Program-made: the position numbers and the translations under genes | Shown: positions 39,725-51,070 of the stretch, one piece after another | Position numbering within the stretch: position 1 is the stretch's first letter | How the letters are laid out: each line of letters begins with the position of its first letter | Source: Hirudo medicinalis | Lineage: Eukaryota > Annelida > Clitellata > Hirudinida > Hirudinidae | Direction: 5' to 3' | NCBI GenBank assembly: GCA_011800805.1 | Contig: MPNW01000031.1 | Coordinates: forward strand, 69,925-133,924 | Length of the DNA stretch: 64,000 bases | Notes under the pieces: model-generated | Seen by the model: only the letters and a program-made list of their open reading frames with translations | Told to the model about the DNA's origin: nothing | Database searches by the model: none

Positions 39725-39730
39725 TTTATT
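39725..39730 (-). terminator. AATAAA polyadenylation signal of METTL14 copy A
   Basis: The reverse complement of TTTATT gives the canonical signal about 75 nt after the copy A stop. Confidence 0.5.
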
Positions 39731-39805: not shown

Positions 39806-41555
39806 TTACTCCTCATTATCTGCAGCATTTTCTTCTGAGTTAAGCTCCATTTGCACCTTATTCACCCTATTAATATCGTCCAGAGAGTCTTTTGGTGGTT
39901 GCCAGCAGCTCTGCAGTTGTTGCTGTTGGGTCAAGCTATTCATAAGTTGCTGCTGTACGTTCATAGGCTGTTTGATCATGCTAGAAAAATGTTGTTGCTT
40001 AGCTAAATTATTGTTCTGCTGGGAGAAAAAATATGCAACGCATGGAGGTTGTTGAAACAAGTGTTGAACAGGCTGCTGTAGTAGTCCCTGAGTGGGGAAG
40101 TTGCTCATGTTTGAAATAATGCATGTATTCAGGGGAAGAACACCGTTAGCTTTGTTCTGGGAATCTGTGTTAACCCCCTGACCTCCAGACGGAAGTTGCT
40201 TGCTTTCCTTTGGAGGTGGTGACTTTGGCCTCATATTTTCTATCTCAGCTGTTGTTCCAGTCAAGTGACCAGTTGAAGAATGGTTGAAATAACCTGAATA
40301 ATCATCAGCATTAAAATTACTTATGGTGAGGTTCGGTCCAACGGTCAACCAGCCAGGTCGGACAGAATGGTTTCTTCCAAAGAGATGGAGTCTCCTTCGA
40401 CCCAGGCAAAAGTTCTCGATAATGTTAAAGAGCTCATTTGGTTTTCTATCAGGCTGGTCAGGATCCTGATCAGCAAGTATCACATCCACATCTACATTTG
40501 CATGGATGAAATCTCCATCTATGCTCCTCTTGACAGTACCTTTGATACCCATCAGACAGTGCTCCTTTAGACAAAATTTATATAAACTAAAATTCAGCAA
40601 TTGCAGATCAATAATTTACTTTAGCAGAAATAAATGTCTTGAAGACTATTTTCCAAAGATTACCTTTGACCTGTGGAATATGGCATCAGGTTCTAGTGTT
40701 TGCAGATTCTCCCGATATATTTTATTCGTTTTGATCCAGCAAATATCTTCACATCTGCGGAAGCCCCATTTTTTAAGGCACTAAAACCATCAGCACTATT
40801 AAACACAAATAATTTAAGCAGCAGATGAACAAATTAAACATTATCAAATAATAAATAGGATGATCAAGAAGCAAACATACTTCTCTTCCCTTGCTAAGTC
40901 CCTCAATTGATCCACACCAGAGCCATACAAATGATCTTGGTGCAGCTAGCTGTTCAACTGGAATTCGTTCAATCTGACCAAGTGAAAATTTCACAAATTC
41001 CAAAATTTGCACAAAATGCATGTTGAAAGCATGATTAAATTAATATTGAGTGGCAACAACATTAACTCAACATTTTCCAAAGTAGAGATGATCAATTATC
41101 TAACACTATTCCTGAATTAATTAAAATGTAACTCAAGATCAAACCTCGTCCCAGTTACAGTATTCATCACAGTAAGTGCCTGAATCCTTTTTAAGTTCAA
41201 GCAGAGGTGGTTCTATAAGGATGGCATCAAAATGTGACTTTAAGTCGACTGCACTAAGCAGGAAAGGATTACACCTCAGACTCATGGCTGGATGATTTGT
41301 AGCTTCCACATGCTGCCTTTTTTTCATCATAAAACTCTCCATTTTTGGGTAATGTCTATATCTTTCATGATATGCATCATTCAAAACAAAATTCTGTGGA
41401 TGTTCTCCAGTTTTTATAAAGTTAAAAGAGTAATCAAATCTTGGATTGCTTGGAGATGACATCAAATCACTGCCTTTCTTAAAACAATCTGAAAAATTGC
41501 CTTGGCTCCTATTGCCAGTTGGCCGATGCTCATCAAATGTTTGATGGGAAGGCAT
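39806..41555 (-). CDS. Diverged METTL14 paralogue (copy A)
   Basis: MT-A70 family protein. Exons, minus: 41559-41145, 40973-40881, 40780-40664, 40564-39806. The last three have exactly the same intron positions and phases as copy B. From the ATG at 41555 the protein is 459 residues; a short upstream exon is possible because an acceptor precedes this ATG. It keeps the METTL14 core: IEPPL (the non-catalytic counterpart of DPPW), [71 protein letters not shown] and RPKSPPPK. The N-terminal helical region is absent and residues before the core are poorly conserved. The tail is Gln/Asn/Met-rich and lacks RGG repeats. Whether it pairs with METTL3 is unknown. Confidence 0.85.
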
Positions 41556-42591
41556 AAATCTGAAAATCCAATAAAATAATTTAAACAAGCACTTCTAGAC
41601 ATACGGAGAGCATACTTAACCTATAAAAAGATCTTAATAAACATACATGATAAACAATAACTTATGCTACTTATGCTACTTATGCTATGGTATTCAAAAT
41701 TTTCAATATGGAATATTTCTAAAACTTCTAAAAATTTTAATAGATTAAGTGTAAGTCTCTGAGACTCATTTCTTCCGCCATTTTTCCTTTTTTTCGAGTA
41801 TTAATGTTGTTTAAGAAAATCCCGAGTCTAAACCAAAAGGGAGAAATATCGACTTTTAGTTTTCGAACTACGCTCATAACATAATTAACATGCCCATTTG
41901 CGAACCTGCAATTTACTTTATGGACTCCTAGATAGCATCGAAAACTGACAAAATATTATTTACTCGACCACTCATCCAATAATCTGTTACTATAGACCAG
42001 GGACAAAATCAAGTTGTAAAGATAGCGAAGAATGGTGTAAATAAACTAACTTAATCTTCCTTACAAATATTCGATTATTTATTCAAATTGCTGTGCTTAA
42101 AACTGAGACGCATAAATTAATTTTATGCAAAATTTAATTCCGCTCTGAACCATTTAATACATAACATCAAATTGGTCGAAAAACAAAAGGATTAATGGCA
42201 AGTAACCTGGGCCCAGGTTTTGAAGATAGTTATTATTCGTGAGGGGAGGAGTTTTGTAAACAAATTTTAAAAATGGGGTTGTGTAATGAAATAAAAGTGT
42301 CTGTGTAGGTTTATTTCCGGAGAAGAGGAGATCTTGGTCGAATATTACGGTGAAACCAAAAATAATAAAATTATTGATTATTAACGTCCGTTGCATATAG
42401 GATTTCTTTCAGATAATGTGATTTGGCATTTCAGGAGTTGGGGGGGGGGGAATTTTTTTTTAATAAATACCAATTTCAAATCAAATAATTTTTCAGTTCA
42501 CTAAAAGGATTTTAACTAACGACACTATACAAACATATTAAAAATTAATAACACAAGCTAAAATAAAAAGAATTGTTCAAAAATAAAATTT

Positions 42592-42858
42592 TCAAAAAAT
42601 TCTTACTCGCCAAGGTTTATTCAAAGCATATAAATCTACAACTCTATCTATAAAATCATCCGTTGGAACTTCAGGTCCTTCAATGCTTAAGATCATACAA
42701 TGAGTTAAAATTTCTGGTGTCATTCTATTAGGTTGGCAACTAAGTTCCCGCCGTTTTGCGGAATGTAACGGAATATTTCTTGCCTTGTTGAGGATCCTGT
42801 TCATTGTACTAAATGATCTCTCTATTGAGGAAGTTGTTACTGGAATAACAAGTTGCAA
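42592..42858 (-). mobile_element. hAT transposase C-terminal dimerisation fragment
   Basis: A minus ORF of 88 codons with the hAT dimerisation signature: PVTTSSIERSFSTMNRI, then ILTHCMILSIEGPEVP and DDFIDRVVDLY. It belongs with ZMYM6/TTF-type or similar hAT proteins. The rest of the transposase is missing. It contains a small in-frame insertion (see 42728-42773). It lies in the spacer between the METTL14 copies. Confidence 0.8.
42728..42773. mobile_element. 46-bp mariner end flanked by TA duplication, nested in hAT ORF
   Basis: It begins TTAGGTTGGCAACTAAGTTC, a typical mariner terminal inverted repeat. TA occurs directly on both sides (42726-42727 and 42774-42775). Removing the 46 bp plus one TA (48 nt) leaves the hAT frame reading KARN-RMTPE, as in related transposases. 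The opposite inverted repeat is not present. Confidence 0.7.
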
Positions 42859-42919
42859 CTACCAACACTGATCCAGTCGGTGTCATTCCGCCCTCCTCTT
42901 CAGAGAAAGCCACACTTTA

Positions 42920-42990
42920 CTTTAAGTGGTCTTGAAGTTCTCTATGAGCGTATGCCACTCTAACCGAACTCTGAATCGTTATCGTTATTG
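42920..42990. repeat. Dispersed repeat, inverted copy of 11403-11465
   Basis: See the entry at 11403. Shared segments are AGTGGTCTTGAAGTTCT and AACTCTGAATCGTTATCG. Confidence 0.6.
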
Positions 42991-42999
42991 TCATCGAAG

Positions 43000-43965
43000 G
43001 GGATGTTAAGTATAAATGTCCAATAAAAGGCCAGACTTAAGCAAGACAAATCTTTGACCATAAGAGTATAAATGTCCTTGCTGCTTCTAGTTTAGTTTAA
43101 GTTACTATGCCATGATGAGGAGAAGTACACATTCGTTCGTTTGAATTCAATTACTAACCTGATTATTTATGGATTACCTGCTAATTAATAAAGTATTGTT
43201 GAAAATGTTGAGTTTTTTTATTACATCATTGTTTCACGACATACTTTTTAAAACTTGTGCTGGGTCAAATATCTCTCGGTTTCGGCCGAAACCTAAAATT
43301 TACATTCGGTCAGTCTCTATCACATATGGAAATTCAACTGTGTTTTACAATTCATACCAACGTGTTCGAGAAGTGCGGATTCAGCCTCCACAAAATGCTC
43401 ATTTTGAAATTCTGTCAGGTTATTTGAGCACATTGCGAACCTGTCTCCCAAGTGTTTTTTTCACTCGTAATGGTACGAGCGATACACCTGGGTTCTGAAG
43501 AATGTCACGCAACTGTGTATGCTTTTCTTTTTTACCTGACTTCCTATCTTGCAACCCGTCCACACCATTTCTTAGAATCCATTACTTTACCTTAGGGTCT
43601 CCCCAAACTAGTAATTAACAATTATCTTCAACTTCCATCAAATTTTGTAATATCCCTTAATAGCTGCTTCTATAAGCAATATGAACAAACTCTAACTAAT
43701 TTACAAAATAAAACAAGCTTTACTGTGCCTGAAGTAAAAATAAATGTGGTATCTCACGCAATGATATTTACCAAAACCTTTAGAGTTACACTGCTTTTGT
43801 GGCACAAAAAATACAATTTCAGCCAAAAACATTAATGAGGGAAGTTCCCAATTATCATAAATCAAGAATTATTTTTTATAAGTATGGAAAAAGCCATGTC
43901 AGAAAATGTTAAAAATCGATTCAAATTGTTTTAAATCATTGTCAACAAATCACAAAAACCTCAAA
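43000..43965. other. Spacer between METTL14 copies, no gene recognised
   Basis: A 109-codon plus ORF at 43169-43498 has no features I recognise. The right part is probably the 3' UTR of copy B. Confidence 0.35.
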
Positions 43966-46900
43966 TCATCGAGGCAGAGGCATCCAAGGCCTTGCTTGGG
44001 TGCCAATAGCTGCCTGAGTCTGTTGTCTTGGTTGCCAGGACAACCTCATAAGGTGATGTGGAGAGGGCATGGCATTTCTTGGGGGAGCAATTACACTTCG
44101 AGGGGGAGGAGCCAATCTAGATGTCAACTGCTGCTGCTGAGCAGCAGCAACCAACCCATTTCTAAGCATAGCTGTGGCTCCAGCAACAATGTCTCTTGTG
44201 AGAATGGGCATTCCAGCAACCTGAACAACACTTCCTGGTAACATGCCCATTGTAGGAGGAGGCAGACCTGTCACTGGGGCGATCCCTGGTGCCACTGTAC
44301 CAATACTGGCAGCCACTAAGGCATTGGATGACAGTTGTTGTTGCTGGGTTGCATTTTTGGGAGGGGGTGACTTGGGCCTCAATCGTTCAATTTCATCTGT
44401 ACAACCAGTCAAATGTCCCTCAACCTTCTGAGTGAAATAACTTGAGTAGACTTCAGGGTCAAAGTTGCTGCTGGTGAGATGAGGTCCCACTGTCAACCAG
44501 CCAGGTCTAACTGAGGTGTCTTTCCCAAAGAGGTGCAGTCTTCTCCTACCAAGGCAAAAATGTTCTATGATGTGAAAAATTTCCATTGGTTTCTCATCCA
44601 GGATGTCTTGCGGCTCCTCCTCAATCACGAGATCAATGTCCACATTGGCATGGATGAAATCACCATCTGTACTCCTACGAACTGTTCCCTTGATGCCCAT
44701 CAGGCAATGCTCCTAGAGAAAATATCATTATTTTTGATTTGTCTTCAATAACACCTCAGCAAACTCAAGGCAGAAATCATTATTCACCTTAGTCCTTTGG
44801 AATATAGCCTTCGTCTCCAGATTTTTCTTATGCCCAGGATTTTTAATGTTTGTCTTGATCCAGCAGATATCCTCACATCGTCTGTATCCCCATTTCTTAA
44901 GGCACTTAAATACCCAAGCAGGACAATATCATGAGCATCAATAAACCCCTCACCATTAATTGTCAAAATAAACAAAATAAATTATAATTGTCAAGTTATA
45001 ATGTAAAAGGCAATAATCACTAATAAAATGAAATAAACACAATTTTCTTTAATATCATGGTTAGTAATTTTTATTTCCACAATGAGGCACTTAAAGGAAC
45101 CTTTCGTGCTGCATCGAGGCCATCGCTCGAACCACACCAGATCCAAATGAAGGAGCGTGAAGCTGCAATTTGGTCGATGGCAAGCCTCTCAATCTGAAGA
45201 GATCGTTTTGATTTACTTCATATTTTATAAGGTTCTCCAAGGCAAGTCTTGCTAATAGCTTCGATGTTTTTGTCTAATTAATTGGCAGCCAGGTTAGCTC
45301 AATGGGTTGCATTCCTGCATGTGGCAGAATAATGTGTCATGTTCCTAACCCTGCTTGCACTGCCAGGGAGCAACATAGGGTAGGGCACTGCATAAATGAT
45401 AGAGCAATTAAACAGTGCCTTCACATCCCTTCAGATATATAAGGCACTCAAAGGATTGGCTAAATACATTACAATACAGTTAAGTTATCCAAACAAGCAT
45501 TTTAAGTTAACCAAACAAGTAAATTTAAAAAAAATCTTGAACCAAATGAAAGAATTAAAAAAATCTCAATTAAGGTCTGGAGTCGAGGTCAGACCAAGAC
45601 CTATTTACTAAAAATAATTAAATCATTCCCAGTTCCATCCAAAATTCCAGTTCAGTCTCAATTTCATGTATAAGGCAAATTATTTAAAGAAAATGTTAAG
45701 ATATTTTATTACTGTTATATATTTATTATATTTAAAAAAACATAAAGATATTTTATTATATTATTTATTTGTTGCATATTTTGTTTGTTGCGAAGGCACG
45801 AGGCTAGAGCCAACGCTACACATCGATGTGTCAAACATACTCAAGGACACATGAATTTGATTAATCAAGTAAATCTTTGTTACTTTTGACTCTGTTGAAA
45901 CCTTCAAGATTTTAGAGTCGATGTCCATGGATCCACAGTTATCCTATCACATGTGGAAAAGTTCCTTTCGTATGAAATGGAACTGGAAGGATTACTTATA
46001 GAGAAACTTTGATAGTTTTTGAAATGTTGGGAATCTATATATGATACTCCAGTAATGTAAAATGTCTTTCCTGTTTTCAATTTTTACAGGATGCATTTCT
46101 GAAAAGAAACACAACTCATCCTTATCATTTGCTTCCTCTTCTTCATTTATTACCAGCAAATCATCTATTGGAAATAAACAATTTGCTGACACTCTAATCA
46201 ATCATTTCAGATTGTTCTTGATTTACATCTTCAAAGAAAATTATTTTAATAATAAAAATTACTATCTGATTGATTGGTTTAAAGTTTCCCTAAGTTCCCG
46301 GCCCCTATGAAATTTCTCGTGCCCAATCCCATAGGCATCCCTATCATTTCCTCCCAGTCCTGATCTCAAAGTTCATCCTAGTTCCCAAGGGAGTCCCGCA
46401 GGAAAAATATTCCCAGCCCGACCTCTAGTCTGGAGTAATGTAACCATGTAAAAAAACTTCTCAATTAATTTGTTTAAATTATCTCATTACTTATTATGTT
46501 TAATTGCTCCAGACAGTACTGGTATACTCCTGCTAATTATAAATAATAATAAAGTCAATTTTTACAATAAGGAAAATGATACAAAATAAAAAAATCACAG
46601 ATATTGATATCAGACCTCATCCCAGTTCCAATATTTGTCATAGGTGACTCCCAATGTCCTCTGGTACTCCTCCAAAGGCGGCTCCAGGAGGATGACGTCA
46701 AATTTGCAATCAAGATCACGAAGGTCAAAGATGTTGAGATTACACTTCAGGTACCTCAAAATCGTGCAGAATTGAATTTGATTAGATCAAAATGAATTCA
46801 AAATACAATTTTATTCAAATACCACATGGTGCAAATTTGTGAAAGCAGCAATTGTGCTGAAGTTAATTGCTAAATGGTTGTTCAAACAGTTAAAAGTACT

Positions 46901-48304
46901 CAGTTAAATTTTTATGCATATCATAAAAACTGCATACATTGGAGGAGTATTAGTTTGCTGAATGAGTTGGTCCTTTTTCAGGATGAGTTCTCTCAACTTT
47001 GGATATTCCTCAAATCGATTGGTGAGCCCAACATCTCTGATGAAATTCTGTGGTCTTTCTCCTGTGTCCACAAAGTGTTGGCAGTAATCATTGTGAGGGT
47101 TGGCACTTTGTGTTCCCTTGTGAGTAATTGAATTGTTTGTTGCAATATTCATCTTCTAAGTGATTGTTATTACTCACTAAATCACACTTTCTTCTCCATT
47201 ACAAAATAACATCTTATCCTAGACAAATATGGAAATTGTCTGTGGCACAAAAGTCAATATTGAACTTTGGATAAATGAATAACCCATAAATTATGTAAAT
47301 TAACTATTAATGAATTTTTTTTATTCTTATTACCACTAAATGCTGTGAAGAAACAAAAATTTAATCAATGGAGAGCATTGCTGCTTAAAAGTTAACTGGA
47401 ACATACACTCTAATAAAACTCACAGTCATTATCATTAACAAAGCAACAATTTATAAACTCAAACCTTCAGGAAAGCACTTGAATCTGTGTAAATCTTCTC
47501 TTTATCTGTTTCTTCATTCTGCAGTCATTACCAAGAATATAGTGATCTGTTTCTGATGGGAAATATTATTGATTCAGTGTACATACCACATCAATTGACT
47601 CTTCATCATTATGTAGATTTTTTATCGGAATGTCCACACCTAATGATTTCTTTGGTTTGTTGCTAAATATTCTGTTTCTGATGATATAAAGTAGACATGT
47701 TTATGTATCAATATTGACAATTACATTTACCTGTCTATTCTTACTTAGTAATAAGCCAGGAGCATCATATATAGCTGAACAAACTAATCTTAACACCTGA
47801 ATGCAATAACATATTAAGCATCACAGATGCTTGCAATAAAACTTAATAATATCGATTCTTTCTTGGGTTTAGACAATGAACTTATATCAAGAACAATGGT
47901 TTTTTAATGCAAACCTGTTTAAATATTAAAATAGAATTAAAAACTCTAATTTGTAAATTTGATGAATAAAACCAATTAATTTACTAAATGTCAATCGCTT
48001 GGCAATCCTAATTATCTCATCCCATCCTAAGCAAACGTCAAAATGGTAAAACCGCTTTCATGCTCACATATCTCTTAATCGTTGCTTCCTTTCTTCTAAC
48101 TCTTGTTTACTTCTACATAAAGCATCCAACTTTCTTGCATCCCTTAGTTTGAACTGAAAAACAATAGTCATTTTAAAACCGAGGTGACCAAACAAATAAT
48201 TTAATTGGAAGAAATCTAGAAATGCCAACAAATTGTGCCAGCAGGATTCTTCTTTTCCTGGACGACTCCCTCCTTCTCTTCAAGTTTTCAATAATCGAAG
48301 ACAT
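43966..48304 (-). CDS. METTL14: METTL14, m6A methyltransferase non-catalytic subunit (copy B)
   Basis: RNA-binding scaffold partner of METTL3 in the nuclear N6-adenosine methyltransferase complex. Exons, minus: 48304-48230, 48153-48068, 47671-47587, 47518-47465, 47116-46938, 46754-46616, 45193-45101, 44904-44788, 44712-43966. Phases agree, giving 524 residues (human 456). The start [19 protein letters not shown] and LLAQ match the basic N-terminal helix. The core shows [45 protein letters not shown] (EPPL replaces DPPW), [56 protein letters not shown] and RPKSPPPK. The tail is Ala/Pro/Gln/Met-rich and lacks the RGG repeats of vertebrate METTL14. An open segment at 47745-47788 can be read as an extra exon but does not join in phase. 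The intron 46615-45194 carries a SINE. Confidence 0.92.
45284..45480 (+). mobile_element. tRNA-derived SINE (family 2) in a METTL14 intron
   Basis: A-box-like GGTTAGCTCAATGGGTTGC at the start, then a weakened B box (TGTTCCTAACCC) and the body TGCACTGCCAGGGAGCAAC shared with 28340-28530. It is antisense to METTL14. Confidence 0.75.
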
Positions 48305-49626: not shown

Positions 49627-50883
49627 CTACATGTGCTTCTGGAGTGATTGAAAATAATGGAAGCAATCTTGGAAATCTTCAATACTACCCCCAAACCTCT
49701 CGTACCAATGCACATAAGCTTTCACCTGAAATTTATCATTTGCAGATTGCAATGTTTTGTTGAGATAGTTCCTCATGAAGTCATTGTTTCTGTATGCTAG
49801 AGTCAGTGAAATAGATTGAGGTTTTTCTTTTGAGATATTGACTGGTGATTCCCAGAACTGCTGGGGTGCTGAGATGCCAATTCTGCAGAATTCTCTGATT
49901 CTTGCATTGATAGAACATATAACCTCGCTGGATAATGGAAGATTATTACTGCCTCTTGCTACCAAGAAATAACCCTTCTGATGTTTTTGGTTAAACCTTT
50001 TTTCTGATTTTCCCTGTATTGCTCCTAATGTATGGAATGGTTCAGCAGAATTGAGTAACTTGTCAACAGCTTTGTTCCAAGACCTGAAAGGTTCAGCAAC
50101 TGAACACGACAAAAGGAACTTGTGCTCGTTTAGACTCATTGCTTCATTTAGGGCTTCCAGCATACAAATGTCATTATTGGTCTGTCCCTTTGTTGGCAGA
50201 GACAGACCTGTCAGATTTTCTGCAATTAAAGCATTGAGATCTGAAAAATTTGGACCTTTACCAGCTGAAAGTTTACCAGCGCTGATTTGTGCCATCAATT
50301 TGTCATTATATTGCATCAAAATGGCGTCGCATTGCTCGTTGAGCTTGTGGAGTGTCAGCAGGGTGTTGTAATGCTGCAAGGGAGTATCGCCCATTTCGAA
50401 AGGCGCTACGGAACACGTTATCAAAGGCCTTGATGGTATCTCATCTTTGATCATCTCTGAAAGACGTGAAGTGACGCCAGAACCGGTGCCTCCAGACAAG
50501 CTGTGAATCATCAACGTCACTTTATGCCTATCGCCTCTTTCACATTCTTTCCTCAATTCTTCTAACGCACGTTCGAAGATGTCGTCCTTGTGAGAGAGTC
50601 GGAATTTGTAGTATCCCATTGCCCAGTTGTTTCCGCGACCACATCTCTCTATGATGACACATCCGGGTCTGAGGATGTGCGATCCACAACGTTTTTGCTC
50701 TACGATTTTCTTTAAGACCCTTGCCTCGGTGTCTATGTTAATTGATCGATAATAAAACAGATTGTTTCGAGGATTTTCAAGCACGAAGCAATTTTTTTCC
50801 AAATCACTGTTTTGAATAGCATTCCAGAAATGGTCCCCAATTTGATTCCCGCACTGCCCGATTTGTAAAACTATGCCAGACAT
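49627..50883 (-). CDS. Zeta-type tubulin (delta/zeta group), intronless
   Basis: Divergent tubulin of centrioles and basal bodies. A single exon of 418 residues; I start at MSGIVLQIGQCGNQIG (50883), because the in-frame upstream Met adds a segment no tubulin has. GTP-binding elements are visible: QCGNQIG near the N-terminus, GRGNNWAMGY, and the tubulin signature SLSGGTGSG. Zeta-like traits are CSVAPFEMGDTPLQHYNTLL, where delta tubulin usually has IIWPYGTGEV, and the HSLSGGTGSG context. The C-terminus (KAYVHWYERFG, then EDFQDCF) fits delta and zeta alike. Neighbouring genes have many introns, so the lack of introns suggests retroposition or intron loss. Zeta and delta tubulins share the ZED module kept in animals with particular basal-body appendages. 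Confidence 0.78.
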   Translation of the reverse strand: MSGIVLQIGQCGNQIGDHFWNAIQNSDLEKNCFVLENPRNNLFYYRSINIDTEARVLKKIVEQKRCGSHILRPGCVIIERCGRGNNWAMGYYKFRLSHKDDIFERALEELRKECERGDRHKVTLMIHSLSGGTGSGVTSRLSEMIKDEIPSRPLITCSVAPFEMGDTPLQHYNTLLTLHKLNEQCDAILMQYNDKLMAQISAGKLSAGKGPNFSDLNALIAENLTGLSLPTKGQTNNDICMLEALNEAMSLNEHKFLLSCSVAEPFRSWNKAVDKLLNSAEPFHTLGAIQGKSEKRFNQKHQKGYFLVARGSNNLPLSSEVICSINARIREFCRIGISAPQQFWESPVNISKEKPQSISLTLAYRNNDFMRNYLNKTLQSANDKFQVKAYVHWYERFGGSIEDFQDCFHYFQSLQKHM

Positions 50884-51070
50884 ATTAAAAATAAGCCGCG
50901 ATAGTAGATAGTCAAAAAGTGACACATTTATGCGACTATTAATGCGTTCAGGGTGTAGACTTGGACCAATTTGCTATCGTCAATATGAATTAACATGTGT
51001 CTTTGTCGAATTTGATTAAAATATAAAATCCAATTCTGTTTGCTTACATACAGATCGTGCGGAATTCGCC

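Follow-up and report, generated by a model that had tools for sequence, protein, structure and literature searches.

Tandem METTL14 and METTL3 duplicates in the leech Hirudo medicinalis and a candidate second m6A writer pair

Introduction

According to PMC5023411 (in the part available), the core of the m6A writer is a single obligate heterodimer of METTL3 and METTL14; it works together with WTAP and VIRMA. What, then, might a second METTL14 do? This question is raised by a stretch of 64,000 nucleotides of the medicinal leech Hirudo medicinalis (contig MPNW01000031.1, positions 69,925 to 133,924, of the 133-Mb assembly GCA_011800805.1), hereafter the window. It carries two METTL14 genes, of which one, METTL14-B, is ordinary and the other, METTL14-A, is strongly diverged. 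The original prediction explained the pair by a local duplication and listed a second writer complex, a competitor subunit and a germline-specific form as possible roles of METTL14-A. Here, the gene models, the phylogeny and the conserved sites of both copies were analyzed together with the other components of the m6A system in the assembly.

Gene organization of the METTL14 pair

On the minus strand, METTL14-B and METTL14-A follow each other in head-to-tail order, with METTL14-B upstream (window positions 48304-43966) and METTL14-A downstream (41555-39806), which agrees with the tandem, same-strand pair originally predicted. The last exons match the MT-A70 family (PF05063) with E-values of 5e-22 for METTL14-A and 2e-21 for METTL14-B, so the pair is not due to chance.

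METTL14-A has an intact frame of 459 codons, encoding 459 amino acids, with GT-AG introns and zero internal stops. Its first coding exon (41145..41555, minus strand; 411 nt from the ATG used) covers the N-terminal extension up to the EPPL and NWDE motifs and matches METTL14 in the PDB with an E-value of 2.6e-15 (window 41139-41594). It is followed on the same strand by a 93-nt exon (40881..40973; GT-AG, phase 0), a 117-nt exon with the groove arginines (40664..40780 in the gene model) and the last exon with the stop codon (39806..40564; 759 nt including the stop), which holds the MT-A70 match and a tail without RG. An AATAAA poly(A)-type signal can be read in the sequence 76 nt past the stop (39725..39730, minus strand).

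METTL14-B starts at an ATG at position 48304 with the exon of the N-terminal helix (48230..48304, end uncertain). The model continues, also on the minus strand, with a core exon (47465..47518), a 179-nt exon with TPPM (46938..47116), a 139-nt exon with EPPL (46616..46754), a 93-nt exon (45101..45193), a 117-nt exon (44788..44904) and the last exon with the stop and the MT-A70 match (43966..44712; 747 nt including the stop). The linker from the first exon to residue ~95 is omitted from the model, as no clean splicing was obtained there.

The 93-nt and 117-nt exons have the same length and phase in the two copies, as first noted in the original prediction, and the last three exons all begin in phase 0 in both, the final exon being long. 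The first recognised coding exon of METTL14-A corresponds to two METTL14-B exons fused, with the intron between them absent. The two proteins are 49% identical over 395 aligned amino acids. An acceptor-like TTTTCAG stands 4 bases 5' of the METTL14-A ATG, so that an upstream exon probably exists, and this exon could be coding; a search for such an exon upstream of METTL14-A did not find one.

Two further features were observed in the window. Between the METTL14 genes lies a fragment of a hAT transposase dimerisation region (42592-42858, minus strand; Pfam E-value of 8e-5). An open frame of 448 codons at 49627-50973 (minus strand) encodes a tubulin GTPase domain that is far from standard tubulins; its best PDB match is beta tubulin, with 106 bits.

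A tandem METTL3 pair in the same assembly

Of the ten MT-A70 matches found across the whole assembly, the METTL14 pair accounts for four, a METTL3 pair on contig C595 for another four and a METTL4-like gene on contig C392 for the remaining two. The latter gene (C392:459982-460931), which contains VMDPPWQNKS, is the only further MT-A70 locus found.

METTL3 is thus also present as a tandem duplicate, made up of one ordinary copy (METTL3a) and one diverged copy (METTL3b). This second duplication makes a second writer complex, as envisaged in the original prediction, more likely. The METTL3a model comprises exons at C595 71485-71072, 70902-70642, ~70316-69492 and 69155-68865. Its third exon begins at 70313 in the model and an AG before an ATG at 70316 was read from the sequence, which leaves the counts unaffected; the first intron would need a GC donor. 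The METTL3a N-terminus begins MSDTWDEIQAIKNKQISLKERIAAKKRQ, a normal leader helix. METTL3b is modeled as three exons (C595 73728-73114, 73046-72258 and 71954-71637) separated by GT-AG introns and is 60% identical to METTL3a over 337 aligned amino acids. In the PDB, its middle exon matches METTL3 best (6ttp_A, E-value of 8e-89).

METTL3b keeps DPPW and the SAM residues, and both CCCH fingers are present (their Cys-Cys-Cys-His sets were identified by visual inspection of the alignments). Among 21 key METTL3 residues named in the available part of PMC5023411, 18 are kept in METTL3b and 19 in METTL3a; I378L and L409M occur in both copies, and R465S in METTL3b alone of the two. To extend this comparison, sites were called near-invariant when conserved in at least 96% of at least 20 of 27 rows, picked from the 120 matches listed for METTL3b. 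By this measure, METTL3b retains 128/144 methyltransferase sites and 24/39 sites in the zinc-finger region, versus 142/144 and 39/39 in METTL3a.

The METTL3b losses are more frequent in the METTL14-facing segment 427-484 (10/51, versus 6/93 elsewhere; P = 0.025; METTL3a, 0/51), a segment fixed after the losses were seen, from strands 4-5, helix 4 and loop 468-480 as described in part of PMC5023411, with the residue limits of the strands estimated and not given by that source. This interface test is modest, and many of the losses are conservative replacements, of I by V or of D by E. The interface-loop residues W475 and L476 are kept. The N-terminus of METTL3b has been replaced: its first 205 residues include 48 basic (K/R) and 35 acidic (D/E) ones, and the N-terminal frame matches no Pfam family at an E-value of 0.1.

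Phylogenetic placement of the duplicates

METTL14-A belongs inside METTL14 and not METTL3, in line with the original prediction. In a joint tree of 19 rows, with METTL3a and METTL3b on the METTL3 side, the branch uniting the METTL14 rows with METTL14-A has a support of 99/100, and the placement outside METTL14 that the original prediction named as its refutation did not appear. None of the best 120 of 1033 matches to METTL14-A is close (47 to 55% identity). In this set, the named matches are mostly METTL14 or non-catalytic N6-adenosine methyltransferase subunit, and the remaining ones have general MT-A70, ortholog-group or hypothetical names.

Two high-scoring matches were considered as close kin and rejected. 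P0001 (Plakobranchus ocellatus; 407 bits to METTL14-A) has one exon's worth of sequence present twice, and P0121 (Lamprigera yunnana; 638 bits to METTL3b) has the methyltransferase domain present twice. Since both are internally repeated, these scores are not evidence of a close relationship.

METTL14-B groups with spiralian animals. In the free trees, METTL14-A stands apart from METTL14-B on a very long branch, its end branch measuring 5.47 versus 0.54 for METTL14-B in the METTL14 tree and 1.23 versus 0.14 in the joint tree. A clade of METTL14-A and METTL14-B is not rejected (AU test, P = 0.54). The joint tree places METTL14-A beside Macrostomum (93/90), a grouping that is probably long-branch attraction. 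The tandem pair originally proposed is supported, but a recent or lineage-specific duplication is not borne out by trees that separate the copies without rejecting their union. METTL3b falls beside flatworms (97/93), with a P value of 0.09 for a METTL3a and METTL3b clade, in a tree whose METTL3 rows were drawn from METTL3b's own best matches. Neither duplication is placed by its tree, and the two need not be equal in age.

Conserved and altered sites in METTL14-A

Near-invariant METTL14 sites were defined as those conserved in at least 97.5% of at least 36 of 40 rows, picked from the 120 matches listed for METTL14-A. In the methyltransferase domain, METTL14-A keeps 84/97 of these sites and METTL14-B 96/97. 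In residues 100-170, the numbers are 21/47 and 47/47, respectively, and the loss in METTL14-A is concentrated in this stretch relative to the methyltransferase domain (Fisher P = 3e-7). In human METTL14, the extension 117-136, which lies within residues 100-170, is described as capping the METTL3 interface (PMC5023411, in the part available).

The core of the protein is better preserved. The EPPL, RNA-groove and RPGWLTVG motifs reported in the original prediction are all present in METTL14-A: EPPL stands in place of DPPW, E192-L195 and P362 are kept, and so are the groove arginines R245, R254, R255 and R298. R249 is changed to K, a change also seen in 16/40 relatives. METTL14-A keeps F281 and has V280I in common with METTL14-B. 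It also carries Y198L and W211C, at two residues that, in human METTL14, fill or block the pocket.

Both C-termini are Q-rich and ~135 residues long. Their similarity to each other is weak (27 of 1000 shuffled sequences score as high or higher). METTL14-B, not METTL14-A, has an LAPPP stretch in common with the relatives P0003 and P0005. RG repeats number zero in METTL14-A and in METTL14-B. Because 13/40 relatives also have none, the C-terminal RGG region is not defining for METTL14 in practice.

Docking helices and the WTAP/VIRMA scaffold

In the available part of the review PMC11877144, human WTAP is described as binding the METTL3 leader helix and the N- and C-termini of METTL14, and human cross-linking and modeling place the leader helix near WTAP and the METTL14 N-terminus near VIRMA (PMC9715571, also in part). 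The corresponding helices were searched for in both leech pairs with probes from relatives.

All six METTL3 leader-helix probes find METTL3a (32.7 to 39.7 bits). The same six probes did not find a leader helix for METTL3b in C595 71637-83999, which covers the gene and ~10 kb upstream (best score, 17.7 bits). Compared with P0175, 14/34 leader-helix residues match in METTL3a versus 5/34 in METTL3b. For METTL14, six of the seven N-terminal probes find the helix upstream in METTL14-B (19.6 to 27.3 bits); the seventh, P0002, begins elsewhere than the helix. On the coding strand upstream of METTL14-A (window 41140-43965), none of the seven probes found the N-terminal helix (residues ~1-25), the best score being 15.4 bits, and the helix loss proposed in the original prediction is thereby upheld for this stretch. 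A 20.0-bit helix match upstream of METTL14-A was discarded: it lies on the opposite strand and runs through a stop. The probes may have overlooked a 5' exon in METTL14-A or METTL3b if its helix is strongly diverged.

One WTAP locus was found in the assembly, and, within the sensitivity of the search used, VIRMA appears as two neighboring pieces of one locus. Absence of the leader helix does not necessarily abolish every contact with WTAP, since a cleaved human METTL3 without residues 1-238 is reported to promote METTL3-WTAP binding (PMC10435237, in the part available). Likewise, a changed METTL14 C-terminus does not set METTL14-A apart, as METTL14-B also lacks the RG repeats.

A candidate second writer pair

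METTL3b and METTL14-A may well constitute a second heterodimeric writer that is not tied to the WTAP/VIRMA scaffold. In this model, METTL3a and METTL14-B form the ordinary m6A writer. METTL3b would supply the active site of the second heterodimer through its DPPW and SAM residues, and METTL14-A the non-catalytic scaffold and RNA groove through EPPL and its four groove arginines. Given that neither diverged copy shows its N-terminal docking part, the second pair is probably free of the WTAP/VIRMA scaffold. It may reach RNA in another way, perhaps through the basic N-terminus of METTL3b. METTL3 and METTL14, the two halves of an obligate heterodimer, are both duplicated, their diverged copies show losses of one kind, and the scaffold was found in single copy; a second core enzyme acting outside the WTAP/VIRMA scaffold is the best explanation of this combination. 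The pairing of METTL3b with METTL14-A, their action without WTAP and their methylation target are what we infer from sequence.

Compared to the known METTL3-METTL14 core (PDB entries 5il0, 5k7m and 6ttp are among the matches), the proposed pair is alike in the EPPL motif and groove arginines of METTL14-A and in the DPPW motif, SAM residues, CCCH fingers and WL interface loop of METTL3b. It differs in that this genome has a second, diverged copy of both subunits, with Y198L, W211C, an altered interface extension and no RG tail in METTL14-A (nor in METTL14-B) and a replaced N-terminus and R465S in METTL3b. The scaffold (MACOM) resembles the known one in that WTAP and VIRMA are both present, at one locus found each; unlike in the known system, the docking helices were not found in METTL3b (leader) or METTL14-A (N-terminal) in the stretches searched.

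Both diverged copies appear to keep enough interface for either to pair with an ordinary partner. It is possible, albeit somewhat doubtful, that the two duplications were independent, with METTL14-A acting as an alternative or competing scaffold for METTL3a, METTL3b serving as an alternative enzyme for METTL14-B, both for example as tissue-specific forms, and no dedicated second pair. The two gene pairs are on separate contigs, and their order is reversed: the diverged copy is downstream in the METTL14 pair and upstream in the METTL3 pair. Such cross-pairing is made plausible by the interface residues noted above (F281 and the shared V280I; W475 and L476). Against this, duplication and divergence affect both partners of an obligate heterodimer, one locus each was found for WTAP and VIRMA, and the searches for a docking helix were negative for METTL14-A and METTL3b alike.

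An improbable reading takes METTL14-A as a non-methylating regulator, such as a chromatin or RNA-binding protein, that was retained because of its RNA groove rather than as part of a writer. It would fit with the METTL3-capping stretch as the most changed part of the protein (residues 100-170) and with the methylation-independent chromatin role claimed for METTL14 in the available part of PMC10501186. Against it, the interface residues 280-281 as well as R245, R254 and R255 are kept or conservatively changed.

Coding constraint

Synonymous differences are saturated in both pairs (pS of 0.81 for METTL14-A/B and METTL3a/b alike), with pN values of 0.28 and 0.24, respectively. The third codon position is the most changed, with differences of 0.34/0.25/0.58 over the three positions in METTL14-A/B and 0.30/0.21/0.58 in METTL3a/b. 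In a neutral simulation starting from METTL14-B, stop-free frames remained in 4/1000 runs at 0.1 substitutions per site and in 0/1000 at 0.2. The saturated synonymous sites and this simulation suggest that METTL14-A and METTL3b have probably been under selection for protein function over most of their history. That METTL14-A, METTL3b or both are decaying pseudogenes or assembly artefacts is highly unlikely: the assembly is to some extent redundant and gapped (C108 and C578 carry near-identical YTH pieces), but the frames are intact at synonymous saturation with a coding pattern of codon positions, both genes have GT-AG introns, an AATAAA follows METTL14-A, and identities of 49% (METTL14) and 60% (METTL3) are far beyond alleles or collapsed repeats.

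m6A readers and related systems

The assembly contains at least three YTHDF-type reader loci (C79, C43 and C108). The C43 YTH domain matches YTHDF1-3 structures first, and it agrees with that of C79 at 112/164 positions. The near-identical copy of the C108 domain on C578 is partial and looks like assembly redundancy. The planarian m6A system is described as having an expanded YTHDF family; this resembles the leech genome, which also has more than one YTHDF-type reader, and it differs in that METTL3/METTL14 duplication is not mentioned in the available part of that source (PMC12864844). Among the literature matches listed (full text, with most subscription journals outside the scope), there was no report of METTL3 and METTL14 both being duplicated in one animal.

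Two COX1 matches were also observed in the assembly. C456 carries a COX1 piece of mitochondrial type in which a segment around an N is repeated. Translated with the invertebrate mitochondrial code, it reaches at best 72% identity, and among the first 120 of 7035 matches the species names are limited to Octopus vulgaris (71%) and Trichoplax adhaerens (66%). The separate match on C459 has no internal TGA under the standard code and is bacterial-looking; C459 is likely a contaminant or symbiont contig.

Implications

Taken at its fullest, and tentatively, the second METTL3b/METTL14-A pair could be a scaffold-independent methyltransferase for m6A or another N6-adenine mark, which would have arisen by duplication of METTL3 and METTL14, removal of the helices that tie them to WTAP and VIRMA, and partner-specific interface changes that separate the two complexes. 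If true, this natural second pair, with catalysis and RNA groove and without docking helices, would allow the scaffold's contribution to site choice, localisation and activity to be tested directly. It would equally be a test case for the way in which one obligate heterodimer gives rise to two specific heterodimers.
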